Assembly (NCBI GenBank): GCA_009840575.1
Contig: VXNO01000004.1
Span: forward strand, 1-34,700
Direction: 5' to 3'
Origin: Chloroflexota bacterium
Lineage (GTDB): Bacteria; Chloroflexota; Anaerolineae; Aggregatilineales; Phototrophicaceae
DNA length: 34,700 bases
The first letter of the stretch is position 1, and every line of letters begins with the position of its first letter. Positions 26,875-34,700 of the stretch are shown one piece after another. The notes under the pieces were generated by a model, which saw only the letters and a program-made list of their open reading frames with translations, was not told the DNA's origin and made no database searches. The position numbers were made by a program, and so were the translations under genes.

Positions 26875-26918
26875 AAAGCCCCTCCCTAATTTTTTGGGGG
26901 AGGGGTTTAGGGTGGGGG
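26875..26918 (-). repeat. Palindromic G/C-rich repeat, copy B (inverted relative to copy A)
   Basis: Read on the reverse strand it begins CCCCCACCC and ends GGGAGGGGCTTT, matching copy A in order and spacing. The two copies face each other across 21 bases. Copy B supplies the last three Pro codons and the stop codon of the next leftward gene. Confidence 0.65.
26879..26905 (-). terminator. Possible terminator hairpin formed by repeat copy B
   Basis: CCCCTCCC (26879-26886) and GGGAGGGG (26898-26905) form a perfect 8-bp stem with an 11-base loop. On the reverse strand it directly follows the stop codon of the 26907-27530 gene and is followed by CTTTAAT, only a short U tract, so termination is plausible but unproven. 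Confidence 0.4.
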
Positions 26919-27530
26919 TAAAATGTGGAAAAATAGCGTGCGCAAGCCCGTCACGAACAGGCAACAATAACTGGCCAGGACTATCCAAATGCCCAGCCCT
27001 GCGCTGCCGCCGCTCGCCAAACTAGCGAAGACATCCAGCGCCAAGCTTGCGCCCGCCAGCGTCGTCAGCGCGCCAAGCAAGCTGAGCCCAGCCACGAATA
27101 AGCGCCGCCAGCGGGCATCCATCCAACACAAAGCCGCCATGCCCAGCAGCAGGCTGGACAGCGCCAAGCCGAATTGCTGTCGATAATTCAGGTTGCCGAT
27201 GTCATTGACAAATTCAATCGGCGGCAGTTGCGCCACAGCCAGCGTAAAAATGACCAGCGCGGCGGCTCGCTTCTCCAGCTTGCCCCGTGCGACCAAGCCG
27301 ACCAGTACGCACAGAATCAGCAACTGGGCGCGCAGCAGCAAAGGCGCGAGCAGTGGCGGATTAGTGGCTCTCTGCGCCGGGTGCAGGCTCGCCCACTCCG
27401 CGAGATCGTAGGCATTCAGAGTCATAGGCGCGTTTGGCGCGAGCAGCCAAGGCAGCAGCAAACCAGCCAGCAACGTCATCAGCAGGCTGAATTGCAAGAG
27501 CGCATGTCCGGGCGGGCGGTTTCCGCGCAT
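26907..27530 (-). CDS. Small integral membrane protein of unknown function
   Basis: The 207-residue protein has about five hydrophobic segments: near residues 12-32, 65-80, 90-105, 120-135 and 145-200. No known family was recognised. It is the last gene of the leftward surface-polysaccharide cluster, 55 bases after the glycosyltransferase. A TATACT on the reverse strand (27571-27566) could give it a separate promoter. The start is ATG 27530 (MRGNRPPGHAL); an in-frame TTG at 27563 lies too close to that box. Its last residues (HILPPP) and its stop come from repeat copy B, so the original C-terminus may have been altered. Confidence 0.65.
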   Translation of the reverse strand: MRGNRPPGHALLQFSLLMTLLAGLLLPWLLAPNAPMTLNAYDLAEWASLHPAQRATNPPLLAPLLLRAQLLILCVLVGLVARGKLEKRAAALVIFTLAVAQLPPIEFVNDIGNLNYRQQFGLALSSLLLGMAALCWMDARWRRLFVAGLSLLGALTTLAGASLALDVFASLASGGSAGLGIWIVLASYCCLFVTGLRTLFFHILPPP

Positions 27531-27585
27531 GAAATCAGGAAGTGTCTTCGAGCTAGAGTACAATCAGTATAGCACGGGCGGTCAT

Positions 27586-28725
27586 TCACCCAGCCAGCAG
27601 CGCGGCATAAATCGAGCGCAATTGCTGTGCCGAGCGCTGCCAGGTGAAGCCCGCGGCTCGCGCATAGCCCGCCTGCACGAGTCGCTCGCGCAGGGCAGGC
27701 TGTTCTTCCAGCGCGATAATCGCATCAACGAGGTCGGTTGTACTGGCTGGGTCGGTTAGCAGCGCCGCCTCGCCTGCGACTTCGGGCAAAGACGACCGGT
27801 CGCTGCTGATGACCGGGCAGCCACAGGCAAATGCTTCCAACACGGGCAAGCCAAAGCCTTCGTATAAGGACGCCATGATTAGTGTCCGCGCTCCGCTATA
27901 CAGCGCCGGCAGGTCAGCATCGTCCACCAAGCCCAGCAGGTGTACAAAAGAGTGCGCGCCGAGCCGGGCAATCGTCTGGTGCATCTCGTCTTCCAGCCAG
28001 CCTTTGCCGCCGGCGATGGCATAATGCAAATCGTATCCCTGCTGGCGCACTGCCGCCACCGCCTGGATGACACGGCTGTAATTCTTGCGCGGCTGGACGG
28101 TGCCCACCGACAGCAGGTAGTCGACGCCATCCAAGCCATAGTCGCGGCGGCAAGCGCGCAGCAGGGCTGGGTCGCGTATTGGTCGAAAATGCGCGTCCAC
28201 GCCGCAATACAGCACGGTGATTTTCTCGGCGGGGCAGCCATAGAGCGCGATGAGGTCGTCTTTGGTGGCTTGCGAATCGGCAAGGATGTGCCCCGCGCGC
28301 GCCACCGAAGGCGGCACAACGGCATCCAGGTAGGCTTTGAGCGGCGGGCTGGCGGCTTCGGGCACGCGCAGGAAAGACAAATCGTGCACCGTCAGCAGGG
28401 TTCGCGTGTTGGGCAGGGTCGGTGGCAGCACAAAGTCGGTGGCGTGGAACAAGTCAATGCTGCCAGTAAAAGCCTCAACAGGAAGCGGCAGGCGCGCTCG
28501 ATGCCACAAACGCGCCAGCCAGCGGGAGCTTAGCCGCGTCGCTCGCCAGCGGAAGTTGGCTGCGGGCAGGCTGGGCAGGGAGTCAGGGTTTGCGCCAGCC
28601 ACAAAGAGCCGATAGTTGTCTTCAGAGTCGAGGCTGGCAAGCGCCGCCGTCAACTCGCGGACATAGCGCCCGATGCCGCCACGCTGCTCGATAGCTGGGG
28701 TGTAGTCAAGCGTGATCCGCTGCAC
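27586..28725 (-). CDS. Glycosyltransferase family 4 (GT-B fold)
   Basis: This 379-residue enzyme transfers a sugar, probably onto a lipid-linked glycan at the inner face of the membrane. The N-terminal domain starts ITLDYTPAIEQRGGIGRYVREL. LLTVHDLSFLR, DSQATKDDLI, LLSVGTVQPRKN and the EX7E motif EGFGLPVLE, followed by AFACGCPVISSDRSSLPEVAG, are typical of GT4 mannosyl- or rhamnosyl-type transferases. The start is GTG 28725, one base after the gtrA-like stop. The sugar cannot be read from the sequence. Confidence 0.9.
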   Translation of the reverse strand: MQRITLDYTPAIEQRGGIGRYVRELTAALASLDSEDNYRLFVAGANPDSLPSLPAANFRWRATRLSSRWLARLWHRARLPLPVEAFTGSIDLFHATDFVLPPTLPNTRTLLTVHDLSFLRVPEAASPPLKAYLDAVVPPSVARAGHILADSQATKDDLIALYGCPAEKITVLYCGVDAHFRPIRDPALLRACRRDYGLDGVDYLLSVGTVQPRKNYSRVIQAVAAVRQQGYDLHYAIAGGKGWLEDEMHQTIARLGAHSFVHLLGLVDDADLPALYSGARTLIMASLYEGFGLPVLEAFACGCPVISSDRSSLPEVAGEAALLTDPASTTDLVDAIIALEEQPALRERLVQAGYARAAGFTWQRSAQQLRSIYAALLAG

Positions 28726-28726
28726 C

Positions 28727-29332
28727 TTAGTCGACGTCGTTATAAGTCCAATAGCGATTGGCGAGGAAGTTCCAGGCAGTTACGACAATCACGCCGACGA
28801 AGAGCGCCAGCATCGTGCCAAGTTTGTTTTGGTCGAGCAGGGCGGGGGCATAATCGGCATTCAGCATTTTGATGAACTCTGTGCTCATCTCGCCCAAGGA
28901 TTGATAGGCGAAGTCGATCCACACAGTGCGCAGCGCCCAGCCAATGACGCTGACGATGAAGAATTGACTCAGCTGCCTGCGCGCCGAACGCGAACGGGAA
29001 TCGGGATAAGTCCACAGGCGATTCCACACAAAATTGCTGCAAACCGCCAGCACAAAAGCCACTGAGGTCGCCAGCGCCACATTGGCATCCAGCGGCTGGT
29101 TGTTCGTGGTCACCGGCGGCAGCAAGCTATTCTGCAAGATGATGACTGTGCCGGTGTCGATGACAAAGCCCAGCAGCCCGACGAAGGCGAACTTGATGAA
29201 TCGCTCCAGCTCTTTGGCTTTCTCGCCGCCAAAGCGCAGCGCGACCAGCCGGATGAGCCGGTCGGCGGGCGTGCTCACACTGTGGTGGCGGCGCGGCGCG
29301 TTTTTGGCATTGGCAGTCAAAGTTCCCGACAT
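28727..29332 (-). CDS. GtrA-like membrane protein
   Basis: This 201-residue protein has four hydrophobic segments and the GtrA-family features: FIKFAFVGLLGFVIDTGTVIIL, a VAFVLAVCSNFVWNRLWTY segment and a final WNFLANRYWTY. GtrA proteins are thought to flip lipid-linked sugars across the membrane. ATG 29332 has GGAG five bases upstream, made of the end of the upstream ligase gene; a GTG at 29338 overlaps that stop as GTGA. The neighbouring glycosyltransferase and ligase support a role in glycan export. Confidence 0.88.
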   Translation of the reverse strand: MSGTLTANAKNAPRRHHSVSTPADRLIRLVALRFGGEKAKELERFIKFAFVGLLGFVIDTGTVIILQNSLLPPVTTNNQPLDANVALATSVAFVLAVCSNFVWNRLWTYPDSRSRSARRQLSQFFIVSVIGWALRTVWIDFAYQSLGEMSTEFIKMLNADYAPALLDQNKLGTMLALFVGVIVVTAWNFLANRYWTYNDVD

Positions 29333-29334
29333 CC

Positions 29335-30648
29335 TCACTCCAGTTGCAATGCAGTCCGCAACTGACGGTGCAAGATCGTCTGCACACCCAATAATACACC
29401 GATATGCAAAAACAGGCTGTTGACAAACAGGTAATCAAAGAAACTGTGGGCAGCCAAATAGACCCAGCAGCCCAGCAAACCGATGCCCAGCGAGCGCGCG
29501 CATGGGTCAGGGTGTGTCCGCAGCGACCAGCATATCCGCAGCATGTGAGCCCAATAGGCAATGTAGGCAAACAAGCCAATTATGCCCGTCTCCGCCAGCA
29601 GATTGAGATAGGTATTGTGGGCATGACCCAGCGGCAATTGCCAATTGATGAGCCGATATTGCGCGTAGACAACGGGATAATTGCCCAGCCCGACGCCGAA
29701 GAAAGGGTGGTCGCGCGCCATGTCGATAGCCGCCTGCCAATGCGCCAGCCGCTCGATCACCGCGTAATTCTCTGCATGGGCATCGATGCCGCGCACATCA
29801 TTGATGGCGACCAGGTCAACCAAAGACGAGGTCAGCCGCGCAATAAGCGCATCCGGCAAGATACCCGTCTGCCACAAGGCGAAGACAAGCGCAACCGCAA
29901 TCAATGCCAGCAGCAGACCATGCGCAAAGCGCCGTGGCAGCGCAACCAACATGACGAGCGCCGCGCAGGCTGTGCCCAACCAAGCGCCACGACTCCACGA
30001 TGCCAGTAAAGCCGCCGCCACCACCAGCGCCGCTCCTGCCCAAGCCAGCAACTGCGCGACTTGCACAGCTTTAAGGAAGTTTCCTGCCCGCCAATTCGCC
30101 CAAAGCCGCGCCGCCATACCCCAGGCGGACAAACAGCAGACGGGCAGGGCAATGCCCATGAAGCCGCCGAAAGGGTTGGGCTGTCCGAAGGTGCCAAAAG
30201 CGCGATAGAAACGCCCGAGGATCAGCAGATGCTCAGCGCCGCTGCCACCCAGGAAGATGTATAAACCGACCAAGCCATTGCCGACCGCCGCCACCGCCAC
30301 CGCATAGACCAGCCACCGCCAGCGCCCGCCGCGCTCGAAAGCCAGCAGCCAGACCAAGCCCGCCACCACCAGCCATTTCAGCCACTCCTTGAGCCACTCG
30401 GAGAGCGACTCGCTGCTATATGCGCCGATGGCAAAGACGGCAGTTAGCAGAATAGTCGCAATAAGAGTGGGGTTATGCTCGAGGCGCAGTAGCCGTCCGC
30501 GCCGCAAAACCAGCCCGCCTAGCCACACAATGGCGAAGATCAGCAGCAGAACCTGGTCAATGCTCAGCGGCAGGCTTAAGCCGCTCTCCACCGCGACCAA
30601 AGCGCGCAGTGGCGAAAGCGTCAGCAGCGCCACCAACATGGGCGACAT
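29335..30648 (-). CDS. O-antigen ligase/polymerase family (Wzy/WaaL-like) membrane protein
   Basis: This 437-residue polytopic protein has about 11 hydrophobic segments. A long periplasmic loop near residues 280-340 carries IDMARDHPFFGVGLGNYPVVY, then GHAHNTYLNLLAETGIIGLFAYIAYW, the signature block of the O-antigen ligase superfamily. It would polymerise glycan units or join them to an acceptor on the outer face of the membrane. The ATG at 30648 lies four bases after the epimerase stop; the longer frame to 30873 reads the epimerase out of frame. No clear Shine-Dalgarno is seen, so re-initiation is likely. It is a shorter relative of the domain in the 31767-34700 gene. Confidence 0.9.
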   Translation of the reverse strand: MSPMLVALLTLSPLRALVAVESGLSLPLSIDQVLLLIFAIVWLGGLVLRRGRLLRLEHNPTLIATILLTAVFAIGAYSSESLSEWLKEWLKWLVVAGLVWLLAFERGGRWRWLVYAVAVAAVGNGLVGLYIFLGGSGAEHLLILGRFYRAFGTFGQPNPFGGFMGIALPVCCLSAWGMAARLWANWRAGNFLKAVQVAQLLAWAGAALVVAAALLASWSRGAWLGTACAALVMLVALPRRFAHGLLLALIAVALVFALWQTGILPDALIARLTSSLVDLVAINDVRGIDAHAENYAVIERLAHWQAAIDMARDHPFFGVGLGNYPVVYAQYRLINWQLPLGHAHNTYLNLLAETGIIGLFAYIAYWAHMLRICWSLRTHPDPCARSLGIGLLGCWVYLAAHSFFDYLFVNSLFLHIGVLLGVQTILHRQLRTALQLE

Positions 30649-30652
30649 ACGC

Positions 30653-31609
30653 TTAGTTGGCTGCCCTGCCGTCCGCGAGCAGCGAACGAAAATAGTCGAT
30701 TGTGCGCCCCAGCCCCGCGTCCAGCGCAACCTGCGGCTGCCAGCCCAGCGCCTGCCGGGCGCGCGTGGTATCGGGTTTGCGCGTCTGCGGGTCGCCATCA
30801 ATGCGCAAGCCTTCAGCATAAATCGTGCCGGCGCTGTTGCCTGCCACGCGATTGACAACCTCGGCAAAGTCACGGATGCAGATCTCGTGGGTGGTGCCGA
30901 TATTGACGGGGTCGACGAGGTCGCTGTGCAAAAGCCGCACGACGCCTTCGACTAGGTCATCGATATATTGGAAGCAGCGCGTCTGCATGCCATCGCCATA
31001 GATGGTCAGTGCCTCGCCGCGCACCGCTTGCCCGATGAAGTTGGGCACGACGCGCCCGTCATCCAGCCGCATGCGCGGACCATAGGTATTAAAGATGCGC
31101 ACGATGCGCGTAGCCATCCTGTGCTCGCGGTGATAAGCCATGACCAGCGCCTCGGCAAACCGTTTCGCCTCGTCATAGACGCCGCGCGGCCCCACCGGGT
31201 CGACATTGCCAGCGTAAGCTTCGCTCTGTGGATGCACCAGCGGATCGCCATAGACTTCAGATGTGGAAGCCAGCAGGAAGCGCGCGCCTTTTGCTCGCGC
31301 AAAACCCAGCGCATTATGCGTGCCCAGCGCGCCGACCTTGAGCGTCTGGATCGGGTATTTCAGGTAATCAATCGGGCTGGCGGGCGAGGCAAAATGCAGC
31401 ACAGCATCAATAGCGCCCGGCACATGGATGAAATTGCTGACATCGTGATAGATAAACTCAAATTCACGATTTTCCGCCAGATGAGCGATGTTATCGGGCG
31501 AGCCAGTGATAAAGTTATCCATGGCGACGACGCGCAAGCCATCGCGTAGGAAACGGTCGCAGAGGTGCGAGCCTATGAAGCCCGCGCCGCCGGTGATGAG
31601 TAGTCGCAA
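30653..31609 (-). CDS. NAD-dependent sugar epimerase/decarboxylase, UDP-glucuronate decarboxylase (UDP-xylose synthase) type
   Basis: This 318-residue extended SDR enzyme has [12 protein letters not shown] (5-16), [21 protein letters not shown] (112-132), catalytic Y145 and K149 in [23 protein letters not shown] and [29 protein letters not shown]...GPR..YDE.KR is the pattern of UDP-xylose synthases, which turn UDP-glucuronate into UDP-xylose. Related UDP-glucose epimerases or dehydratases cannot be fully excluded. The start is TTG 31609, with an exact AAAGGAGG nine bases upstream; no ATG fits. It heads the run epimerase-ligase-gtrA-GT4. Confidence 0.88.
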
Positions 31610-31766: not shown

Positions 31767-34700
31767 CTAATCACTTTGCGGGTTTGCCCCGTCCGCCAGC
31801 TCGCTCAAGCTCAGCATAGCCGCCAGTTGAAACATAAAAATAAAAGCCAGGTCGACGACAAAATAGCTGTTGTCGATCAGCCCATGCGCCAGCAAGCCCG
31901 CCATGCTGCCCATCAAGCCCGCCGTCATGGCAAATAGCTGCGCATCCCGCCCCCGTGCCGCCCGCAGCGCCCGCCAGCCCAGACGCCAGAATACCGCTTG
32001 TATGGCGAATAATGCCAGCAGACCCAGCAGGCTCAAGCGTGTCCAAAAGTCCAGCGCGAAATTGTGCGGATGCGACAAATCGCTGTCGTGCACGGCATCC
32101 GGGCGCAGGTATTCGCCACCATAAAGATACAGGAATTGGTCTAAGCCGATGCCGGTCAAAGGATAATCGCGGATCATCGCAATCGCGCTCTCCCACAGGC
32201 GCAGGCGCACAAAGGTCGTGCCGCTGCCGATATCGAGCAGGCTCGCGAAACGCGCCGAAATCCGCGTCAGCAAGCCGAAGCCTGCTGCGCCCGCCAGTCC
32301 CGCCCCCAGCAAGGGCAGCCGCGCTCGTCGCTCATAACAAGCCAGACAGACCACTGCGCAGCCAGCCGGCACGCCCAGCAAAATCGCGCCCACACTCTGC
32401 GTCAGCGCCAGGGTTGGCAGCATAATCAGCAAGCTGATGCCCGCCCATAGCCGCAGCCGAGACGCCAAGGGCACCAGTAACAGCGCCAGCGCGATGGGTA
32501 TCGCCCGCCCGAATAACAAGCCGATGTTGTTAGGCGACCCATAGACACTCTGCAAGCGCGTCGCCCCCGCCTCAGCAACGATGACCATATCGCCCAGGAA
32601 ATATAGAAACAAGCCAATAAGCGAAACAAGTACCGCCGCAGCGAGCAAAGCCAGAAAATAGCGCATCAACATGGAGCGATCGGGGCGCGTGCCGCGCAGC
32701 AGCAGGTAAAACAGCGCTGGCTCAATCAGCAGTGTGCGCAGCTCGGTGGTCGCGCTGGCAACATTGCGCGTCCATAGCAGCGAGGCGACTCCCAGCCCGA
32801 CCAAACACAAAACCAGCGCGTCCAGCCAGTGCACATGCCGCAAGCTCGCCTGTGAAAATAGTGGAAAAGCCGCAGCGCGCATTTGCAAGCGCTCCCCCAG
32901 CGCGACTAGCCCGCGCAGCAAGCCCGCCGCTGCCATGAGCAAAATCATCACTTCGACCATGGGGAAGGCGTAGTTGTGCAACTCGACCGGATACAAAAAG
33001 AATGGCGCCCAAAGCAGCGTCAAAATCAGCCCGCTCTCCAGCCGCTGGAAGACCAAGCCGAAGAGCGCCAGCCCAAGAAGCAGTGAAAGCAGCAAGCTGG
33101 GCGAGAAATACAGCAAGCCGCCGGTCAACAGCGCCAGCAGCAAGTTGACCTCATCGCGCATAAACAGCGCTGGCTTGGGCATGCCCCAAGTTAGCAGCAT
33201 AGCCAGCATCATGGCTAGTGAGGTTGCGCCAGCCAGCAGTAAGTGTATGCCTGCGCTTAGTCCGCTGGTGATAGACGCAATGCGCGGCAGCCAATCCGCC
33301 CATGGCGCTCGCATCAGCGAGGTCAAGAGCGCCGCCAGCGAGAGCAGGCATGTCACAATGCCCAGCGCGATCTGCCGATTATACGGTGCAGCCAGGTTGC
33401 CGGAGCTGACGGCGTAGCCAGCGATCGCCCAGCGGTCCCAGCCTTGGTCGGCGACCGCGGTTAAGCGGTGCTCGCCCAGCGACAGCCCGCGCGCGACTGG
33501 CGCAACCGTTTGCTGTGGCTGCTGGTTGTTGCTGCGCAGGAAGATATAGGCATTGCCATCGGCATCGTGTTGGGCGGCATTGGCTGGCTCGCCATCGACC
33601 TGCGGATACAGAAAAGCCACATAGTCATCTTCGTTGACCAGCATGGCGACATCGCTGCCAAAGAAATCAAAGGACAGGTGACTGTCGCTGGTATTAAGCC
33701 AGCCTATGTCCGCGCCGCGTTCGCTGAATTGCCAGATGCCGCTGTAGCCCGCGTAGGGATTGCGCGCATGATAAAGCCCGTCTTGGGCATGGGTTTCTGC
33801 CTGGATGGCTGGCAGCGCATCCAGAAGCGGGCTTGCCGAGCCATCGGGCTGTACGAGCGCGAATCCCCATTGGGCGCTGGTGGGCGGGGCGGCTGGCTGC
33901 CAATGCTGCAAGAACATCGCGCCCAGCCAAGCCCATTCGCGGCGCGCCCGTTGGATAGCTTGCCGAGTGTAGGCGATTTGTTGTTCTTGGCTGACATCCT
34001 CCCAGATGGATTCATCGCCTTGCCAGCCGGGCGGCAGCGCATTCCAGCCGAAGTTGCTCGCCCATAGAGGTTTTTTCCCATCGCCATTCGCCAGCATGAT
34101 TTCGCGCAGGGCGATCAAGCGCGAAAAATTGAGCAGGCTTTCATCGACGCGCCGGTCCAGCGGCGAATGTTCAAAGCCATACGGTTTGCCCGCGACTATA
34201 TCCATCAGGTCGCGTGCGCCGTGATCGTATAGCGCCTGCAAGTAGCGGATATCGCTGATATTTTGCCCGCTAGTTTCGGTGGTGGGTGCCAGGGCGGCGG
34301 CAATGATGGTAGCGGTGGAGTCGTTGCGCAGGATGGCTTGGCGCGCAGTTTCCAGCAGGGCGATATATTCGGCAGGCCGCGGGTCGAGACTGCCCCAGGC
34401 ATCATCCAGGTTCGGTTCATCCCAAACCTGATAATAATCAATCTCCCCGCTATATCGCGCCGCGAATTGGCTGACGAATTGCGCGAAGCTGTCCAGGTCG
34501 GCGGGCGGGGCAGTCGCGGTGAGCGCGCGGGTCGGATGTTGATTGCGCGCCCAAGCCGGGCTATTCATCAACACGACCACCAATTCCAGCTCGGGGAAAG
34601 CCCGCAGTTGCTCGACGAGCGCATCCCAGCCTGACCAGTCGAACTCGCCGGGCTGCGGCTCTAGCTCATCCCAGCGCGCGAATTGCCGCAGCCAGCGAAA
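31767..34700 (-). CDS. Glycoside-hydrolase-like domain fused to an O-antigen-ligase-like membrane domain (partial, N-terminus beyond the right edge)
   Basis: The frame is open to the window edge, giving 977 residues in view (numbered from the edge). Residues 1-300 look like a clan-A TIM barrel (GH39/GH5-like): FRWLRQFARWDELEPQPGEF, then YYQVWDEPNLDDAWG with the acid/base Glu (E95), and a later strand WASNFGWNALPPGW where the family normally has ...TEFGW; the nucleophile Glu is Asn (N216, codon 34055-34053). Residues about 310-450 are beta-rich (SFDFFGSDVAMLVNEDDYVAFLYPQVDG; GWDRWAIAGYAV). From about 450 on there are 14 or so membrane segments, ending in MIRDYPLTGIGLDQFLYLYGG and HPHNFALDFWTRLSLLGLLALFA, the O-antigen ligase signature. 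It lies 157 bases upstream of the epimerase operon. Function as ligase, polymerase or glycan-binding protein is inference. Confidence 0.85.
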   Translation of the reverse strand, partial: FRWLRQFARWDELEPQPGEFDWSGWDALVEQLRAFPELELVVVLMNSPAWARNQHPTRALTATAPPADLDSFAQFVSQFAARYSGEIDYYQVWDEPNLDDAWGSLDPRPAEYIALLETARQAILRNDSTATIIAAALAPTTETSGQNISDIRYLQALYDHGARDLMDIVAGKPYGFEHSPLDRRVDESLLNFSRLIALREIMLANGDGKKPLWASNFGWNALPPGWQGDESIWEDVSQEQQIAYTRQAIQRARREWAWLGAMFLQHWQPAAPPTSAQWGFALVQPDGSASPLLDALPAIQAETHAQDGLYHARNPYAGYSGIWQFSERGADIGWLNTSDSHLSFDFFGSDVAMLVNEDDYVAFLYPQVDGEPANAAQHDADGNAYIFLRSNNQQPQQTVAPVARGLSLGEHRLTAVADQGWDRWAIAGYAVSSGNLAAPYNRQIALGIVTCLLSLAALLTSLMRAPWADWLPRIASITSGLSAGIHLLLAGATSLAMMLAMLLTWGMPKPALFMRDEVNLLLALLTGGLLYFSPSLLLSLLLGLALFGLVFQRLESGLILTLLWAPFFLYPVELHNYAFPMVEVMILLMAAAGLLRGLVALGERLQMRAAAFPLFSQASLRHVHWLDALVLCLVGLGVASLLWTRNVASATTELRTLLIEPALFYLLLRGTRPDRSMLMRYFLALLAAAVLVSLIGLFLYFLGDMVIVAEAGATRLQSVYGSPNNIGLLFGRAIPIALALLLVPLASRLRLWAGISLLIMLPTLALTQSVGAILLGVPAGCAVVCLACYERRARLPLLGAGLAGAAGFGLLTRISARFASLLDIGSGTTFVRLRLWESAIAMIRDYPLTGIGLDQFLYLYGGEYLRPDAVHDSDLSHPHNFALDFWTRLSLLGLLALFAIQAVFWRLGWRALRAARGRDAQLFAMTAGLMGSMAGLLAHGLIDNSYFVVDLAFIFMFQLAAMLSLSELADGANPQSD

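Follow-up and report, generated by a model that had tools for sequence, protein, structure and literature searches.

The reason for the presence of a glycosidase in polysaccharide synthesis loci has been described as an open question, and the role of such hydrolases as elusive (PMC9075953). In the locus analyzed here, a glycosidase-like barrel is joined to a membrane ligase domain in a single protein. The window, which is the whole stretch of DNA that we analyzed, is an entire contig of 34,700 bases, and a single stop-free frame of 977 amino acid residues on its reverse strand runs to its end (Table 1). Since the contig ends inside this gene, the 5' end is lost, and with it approximately 76 residues of the N-terminus, among them the membrane anchor; nothing but the contig end cuts the gene. 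Complete homologues have about 1050 residues (range about 1020 to 1075) and consist of a membrane anchor, a (beta/alpha)8 barrel, a beta-sandwich and a polytopic Wzy_C domain, and the homologues with an intact 5' end start with the N-terminal membrane anchor.

In a scan of bacterial genomes, which reaches close relatives only, 25 loci were found, and every one came from an Anaerolineae/Chloroflexi assembly. Both halves of the protein were found together in one frame in 24 of them, and the 25th locus is a fragment at a contig end. No frame break was seen in the window frame or in those of the 24 related loci of other MAGs that have an intact 5' end. The original prediction of one continuous frame was thus borne out, and the predicted domains (a TIM barrel, a beta-sandwich and an O-antigen-ligase domain) and their order were all correct according to the models and Pfam; of the two findings that it had named as contrary to it, an upstream frame break and the lack of a glycosidase-like fold, neither was encountered. 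The truncation of the gene and a single relative split over two frames could be taken to mean that the fusion arose by chance joining, mis-assembly or a frame artefact. This reading is refuted by the recurrence of the identical fusion in dozens of independent assemblies, and its probability is negligible. In the split relative (L120, position 1364 onwards; genome G047), the barrel and the ligase lie in two overlapping frames, owing to either natural fission or a sequencing error.

Table 1. Features of the fused gene and its neighbours in the window (residues are numbered from the first residue encoded in the window)
Feature	Position	Strand	Basis
Fused gene: GH39/PslG-like barrel, beta-sandwich and Wzy_C/O-antigen-ligase domain	31767..34700	-	ORF; complete homologues
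PslG/GH39-like (beta/alpha)8 barrel; the window covers beta2 to beta8	33801..34700	-	PDB sequence match; model
Beta-sandwich domain	33399..33800	-	Model secondary structure
Polytopic membrane domain, WaaL-like fold	31791..33389	-	Full model of homologue L003
Pfam Wzy_C core	32010..32435	-	Pfam
Asp94-Glu95: acid/base Glu kept, canonical Asn replaced by Asp	34416..34421	-	Alignment with W-N-E-P-N of PslG
Asn216: position of the nucleophile Glu (PslG E276), end of beta7	34053..34055	-	Alignment and model
Lys172: end of beta6 (L003 Lys248)	34185..34187	-	Residue comparison of sequence sets
Gln265: position of the conserved Trp ending beta8 in Asn-type enzymes	33906..33908	-	Residue comparison
Val770: position of the first Und-PP-binding Arg of WaaL (Arg191 of 7TPG)	32391..32393	-	Alignment with 7TPG
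Arg832: invariant; corresponds to the diphosphate-binding Arg265 of WaaL	32205..32207	-	Alignment with 7TPG
His879: invariant; corresponds to the acceptor-activating His313 of WaaL	32064..32066	-	Alignment with 7TPG
UDP-glucuronate decarboxylase (UDP-xylose synthase)	30653..31609	-	PDB matches 4gll/2b69; synteny
Second Wzy_C protein, separate clade	29335..30873	-	Pfam E 2.1e-23; tree
GtrA-family membrane protein	28727..29338	-	Domain search; synteny
GT4 glycosyltransferase	27586..28725	-	Domain search; synteny

The folds of both halves were examined with structural models. The model of the soluble part (alignment A2; pLDDT 92.6) has eight barrel strands and a beta-sandwich, and the barrel has the (beta/alpha)8 fold of clan GH-A. 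In a sequence-profile search of the PDB, PslG was the best match of the barrel (E 4.7e-26), followed by GH39 beta-xylosidases (6uqj, E 5e-11), and PslG was again first in the structure search (Foldseek 5e-25; Z 32.9). In the full-length model of homologue L003 (pLDDT 84, pTM 0.66), the N-terminal half matches PslG (Z 32), and residues 624-1047 match WaaL (7TPG) with a Z score of 27.4 over 378 aligned residues. Pfam Wzy_C was found in the window protein (E 4.5e-13; 49.7 bits against a cut-off of 31.7) and in 24 of 24 members of the homologue alignment. The beta-sandwich shows a weak similarity to the CE2_N jelly roll in 14 of 24 homologues (best Pfam E 6e-4); it was not detected in some relatives of about 900 residues (L148, L152-L156 and L160), which likewise join the barrel to the ligase.

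The catalytic residues of PslG are E165 and E276 (PMC6813494). In the HMM alignment, E165 corresponds to Glu95 of the window protein, which is located at the end of strand 4 in the model; the Asn-Glu pair expected there in a retaining glycoside hydrolase is incomplete, with the Glu present and an Asp preceding it. At the end of strand 7, the same alignment sets AIWSTEWGWSA of PslG against LWASNFGWNA of the window protein, so that E276 stands opposite Asn216 and no nucleophile Glu is found. Together with the match of the C-terminal half to WaaL, these residues suggest that the fused protein is a PslG-like pseudoglycosidase joined to a WaaL-like ligase, which would fall outside the catalytic definition of the glycosidase family.

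We compared 72 nucleophile-less Asp-Glu sequences with 51 Asn-Glu/Glu sequences (residues are numbered according to L003 from here on, except where they appear in Table 1). Asn170, present in 51 of 51 Asn-type sequences, is Asp in 72 of 72 nucleophile-less ones, and position 248, mostly Asn or Met among the former, is Lys in all 72 of the latter. The nucleophile-less set also has Val in place of R119 (51/51 in the Asn-type), Tyr in place of E60, and Gln, His, Glu or Asp in place of W341 (48/51), and its replacements of E292 (51/51) are Asn, His, Gln, Ala or Ser. Over the whole clade the nucleophile position is occupied by N, H, Q, S, A, D or T, with Asn in the window. E171, Y250, W169, W295, W309 and W334 are retained in the nucleophile-less set. 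Judged from these aligned residues, the exchanges at Asn170, Arg119, Trp341 and the nucleophile show a coordinated change of the pocket, and the new finding here is that the catalytic centre of the barrel is dismantled in the Anaerolineae clade.

The pair of catalytic residues was lost more than once. Both Glu residues are present in 51 of 51 Asn-type sequences (pair broken in 0/51), whereas of 112 fused Asp-type sequences 93 have a broken pair and 19 a complete one; as these counts are of related sequences, the minimum number of changes on a tree built without the catalytic-centre columns is the safer number, namely 9 for the nucleophile state, 7 for the acid/base state and 15 for the state 'pair complete'. 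Within the clade of the window protein itself, almost every member retains the acid/base Glu. When forty more loci, spread over many families of the class, were examined, E171 was found replaced by Gln or Asn in several lineages in which E292 was retained, and the replacement of Glu171 by Gln, Asn or Ala with Asp170 kept was observed in L138, L139, L148, L152-L155, L161, L166, L178, L180 and L186. Such repeated loss by different routes is as expected if catalysis is not needed. The dN/dS values were 0.11-0.20 for the barrel, 0.06-0.19 for the sandwich and 0.12-0.16 for the ligase half, and these estimates show purifying selection on both halves. Since catalysis was lost repeatedly under a constraint as tight as that on the partner half, a binding module is the most plausible reading of the barrel.

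We therefore consider it moderately probable that the fused protein is a membrane-anchored ligase or polymerase whose PslG-like module clamps, and does not cut, an undecaprenyl-linked envelope glycan. The barrel would descend from an active glycosidase of the PslG/GH39 type that has presumably lost hydrolysis; the old substrate groove, together with the beta-sandwich, may bind the acceptor or the elongating chain beside the WaaL-like active site, and the clamp may set the efficiency of transfer or the chain length. This proposal is consistent with the retained aromatic pocket (W169, W295, W309, W334 and Y250), with the intact glycoside hydrolases that are fused to, or located just before, the same ligase elsewhere in the phylum, and with the association of PslG with the inner membrane in the Psl synthesis machinery (PMC6813494). 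Against it stand the two Glu residues still present in 19 fused Asp-type proteins, the importance of the hydrolytic activity of PslG for Psl synthesis (PMC6813494), the lack of the first Und-PP-binding Arg in the ligase half of the window lineage, and the retention of the acid/base Glu almost throughout the window clade with Asp170 and Lys248 as new invariant residues, which may represent a rebuilt catalytic site. A more specific form, in which the module is a built-in ruler of chain length or a processivity clamp that holds the chain end at the membrane active site, is a tentative possibility; here an endoglycosidase of a polysaccharide locus would have become fused to the polymerase/ligase for the lipid-linked glycan, and catalysis would have disappeared many times with the groove preserved. 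If true, the module would replace a separate Wzz-type regulator.

The original prediction was of a machine that binds or trims a glycan. Binding fits better with the present results, and trimming is unlikely in view of Asn216 and the rebuilt -1 pocket. If the fused barrel still cut the nascent chain, as has been proposed for PslG, the protein would both polymerize or ligate and cleave; the PslG fold and the acid/base Glu agree with this, as do the fusions of other classes in which the Asn-Glu/Glu site is intact (L086, L087 and L098-L103) and the requirement of PslG activity for normal Psl production (PMC6813494). However, the window protein has Asn in place of the nucleophile, most of the clade lacks the nucleophile, the Arg and Trp of the pocket are gone, either catalytic Glu was lost repeatedly, and intact standalone PslG-like paralogues in the same genome (L088, L089 and L090) could do the trimming, so that we regard active cutting by the fused barrel as improbable.

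Enzymes of family GH20 use neighbouring-group catalysis by a 2-acetamido sugar. Asp-Glu and Lys248 might similarly form a new site that works without a protein nucleophile. Asp170, Glu171 and Lys248 are invariant in 72 of 72 nucleophile-less Asp-Glu sequences, L094 and L127, in which Asp170 is replaced, have also lost Lys248, and in the basal rows Asp and Lys appear before the loss of the nucleophile. On the other hand, sister lineages keep Asp170 and lose Glu171, and no acid/base mechanism tolerates such a loss. This finding makes GH20-like substrate-assisted catalysis less probable, and a re-tooled enzyme appears rather unlikely; the loss of Glu171 in the sister lineages favours a binding role of the barrel for the family as a whole.

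The ligase half was aligned with WaaL (7TPG). The equivalents of Arg265 and His313 are invariant in 114 of 114 sequences, and the His, which activates the acceptor, lies in the long outer loop (His879). Of the two Arg residues that bind the Und-PP diphosphate, the second is thus invariant, and the first, Arg191 in WaaL, is variable in the family and lost in the window lineage, where Val770 takes its place. In BP-Pols of the same clan, Glu or Asp has been described where this His stands, and the His of the fused protein therefore points somewhat to ligase, rather than polymerase, chemistry. Arg731 and Arg808 are almost invariant in the fused ligase half.

A second Wzy_C protein is encoded near the fusion, and the two genes lie side by side in most loci. 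Its ORF overlaps its neighbour and the true start is probably near 30.65 kb; no sequence match to it was found in the PDB. Its homologues keep both Arg residues and the His in 23 of 23 cases. Because the Arg191 equivalent is gone from the fused protein in the window lineage, one may ask whether an impaired fused ligase half serves chiefly to place the barrel, the transfer being performed by the second protein with its complete set of residues. The near invariance of the Arg265 and His313 equivalents, Arg731 and Arg808 and the low dN/dS of the fused ligase half argue against such a scaffold, which we consider very unlikely. The presence of two Wzy_C enzymes per locus suggests a division of labour between a polymerase and a ligase, the second protein being an old separate clade.

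Among known systems, the fused protein has the fold of PslG, the GH39-type endoglycosidase of the Psl locus of Pseudomonas aeruginosa (4zn2, 5bx9 and 9g17), and the two are also alike in the strand-4 W-x-E-P-N motif, in N-terminal membrane association and in being encoded among genes for polysaccharide synthesis. The membrane-associated PslG binds to the Wzc-like PslE, and its activity supports Psl production (PMC6813494); it differs in being a separate, hydrolytic protein with Asn-Glu165 and Glu276, whereas the fused protein has Asp-Glu and an Asn for the nucleophile. The GH39 beta-xylosidases resemble the barrel in fold and in part of the sequence but are free enzymes with an intact catalytic pair. 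WaaL (7tpg; CAZy GT121) and the inverting Wzy polymerases (clan GT-C1, PMC10920833) have Wzy_C, the fold, the second Arg and the His in common with the ligase half; the fused protein of the window lineage lacks the first Und-PP-binding Arg, has invariant Arg residues of its own (R731 and R808) and carries in addition a large N-terminal extracytoplasmic glycosidase-like module.

Klotho chains were also among the structural matches of the fused protein. The ectodomains of Klotho are GH1-like, catalytically dead and used for binding. The likeness lies in a glycosidase barrel that lacks the full catalytic pair, sits on a membrane protein and serves for binding; since Klotho belongs to another GH family, is eukaryotic and binds growth factors, this is an analogy only.

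The gene order is conserved throughout the order: a G5/DUF348 lipoprotein-like gene, the fusion, the UDP-glucuronate decarboxylase gene, the second Wzy_C gene, GtrA and GT4. This conserved synteny confirms that the fused gene lies in a glycan cluster. The decarboxylase is closely similar to the characterized UXS1 (E about 6e-102), and the glycan may perhaps contain xylose, as inferred from the adjacent UDP-xylose synthase. The surrounding genes are housekeeping genes (plsX, hflX, type 2 IPP isomerase and hemW), and the region therefore looks like a core envelope locus rather than a variable capsule island. All through the order, the lipoprotein-like gene is conserved upstream of the fusion; in L004 (8139-9773), it encodes DUF348, G5 and a possible beta-propeller and overlaps the start of the fusion. 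A syntenic neighbour at 26907-27563 encodes 218 residues, is conserved with 32-75% identity and has no Pfam or NCBIfam match. A match to TIGR00947 ('bicarbonate transporter') was far below the cut-off and was rejected.

The fused form had been expected to be rare, which was wrong within this lineage: the order has it as a core gene, and it is widespread across the class. A strong match was obtained in 55 of 61 genomes of the order, with frames of 850-1120 residues except for a few, mostly contig-edge, cases, and the fusion is present in about 50 genomes. The ligase domain was found in 223 of 298 genomes of class Anaerolineae, and in 40 of 40 additional loci sampled from the class the ligase frame contained a barrel match, one of them weak. 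In other Chloroflexota, an intact glycoside hydrolase gene directly precedes the same ligase gene (L077, L081, L085, L104, L106 and L107). Other classes include the above fusions in which the catalytic pair is intact, many of them preceded by an additional standalone glycoside hydrolase gene (L087 and L098-L103), and some loci with the glycoside hydrolase alone. The fused Asp-type barrels formed one clade in the first tree (support 99), their deep placing being weak in the wider tree. The fused state requires at least 4 changes on the tree, which suggests more than one event of joining or splitting of the barrel and the ligase, although some of the 'unfused' rows (L120, L123 and L124) are contig-edge or frame-split cases. 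A search of open-access papers, with limited evidence, found no description of a fusion of a glycoside hydrolase and a ligase.

Anaerolineae are a major group of which few members have been cultured, and these results identify one of their core envelope-glycan loci, which is kept by vertical descent. The fused family is a natural experiment, in which a glycosidase was tied to a membrane glycosyltransferase and, in one large clade, catalysis was dropped repeatedly while the domain remained under strong selection; it separates a binding from a cutting role and offers natural pairs, intact and dead or fused and split.

Pairs of intact and dead barrels recur in the family. In the window's own genome, tandem standalone PslG-like genes (L090, 6651-12080, contig C162) include an intact one (NEPN/Glu) and a neighbour without both catalytic residues (HQQN/Ala). 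The reverse was seen in L100 (5380-9799), in which the standalone upstream barrel is degenerate (HEPN/Ala) and the fused barrel is intact. Finally, L084 (5616-9008, reverse strand) encodes a protein of 1131 residues with a PslG-like barrel, a beta-sandwich and a membrane mannosyltransferase domain of the PMT_2 type, a second, independent fusion of a PslG-like module to a membrane glycosyltransferase.
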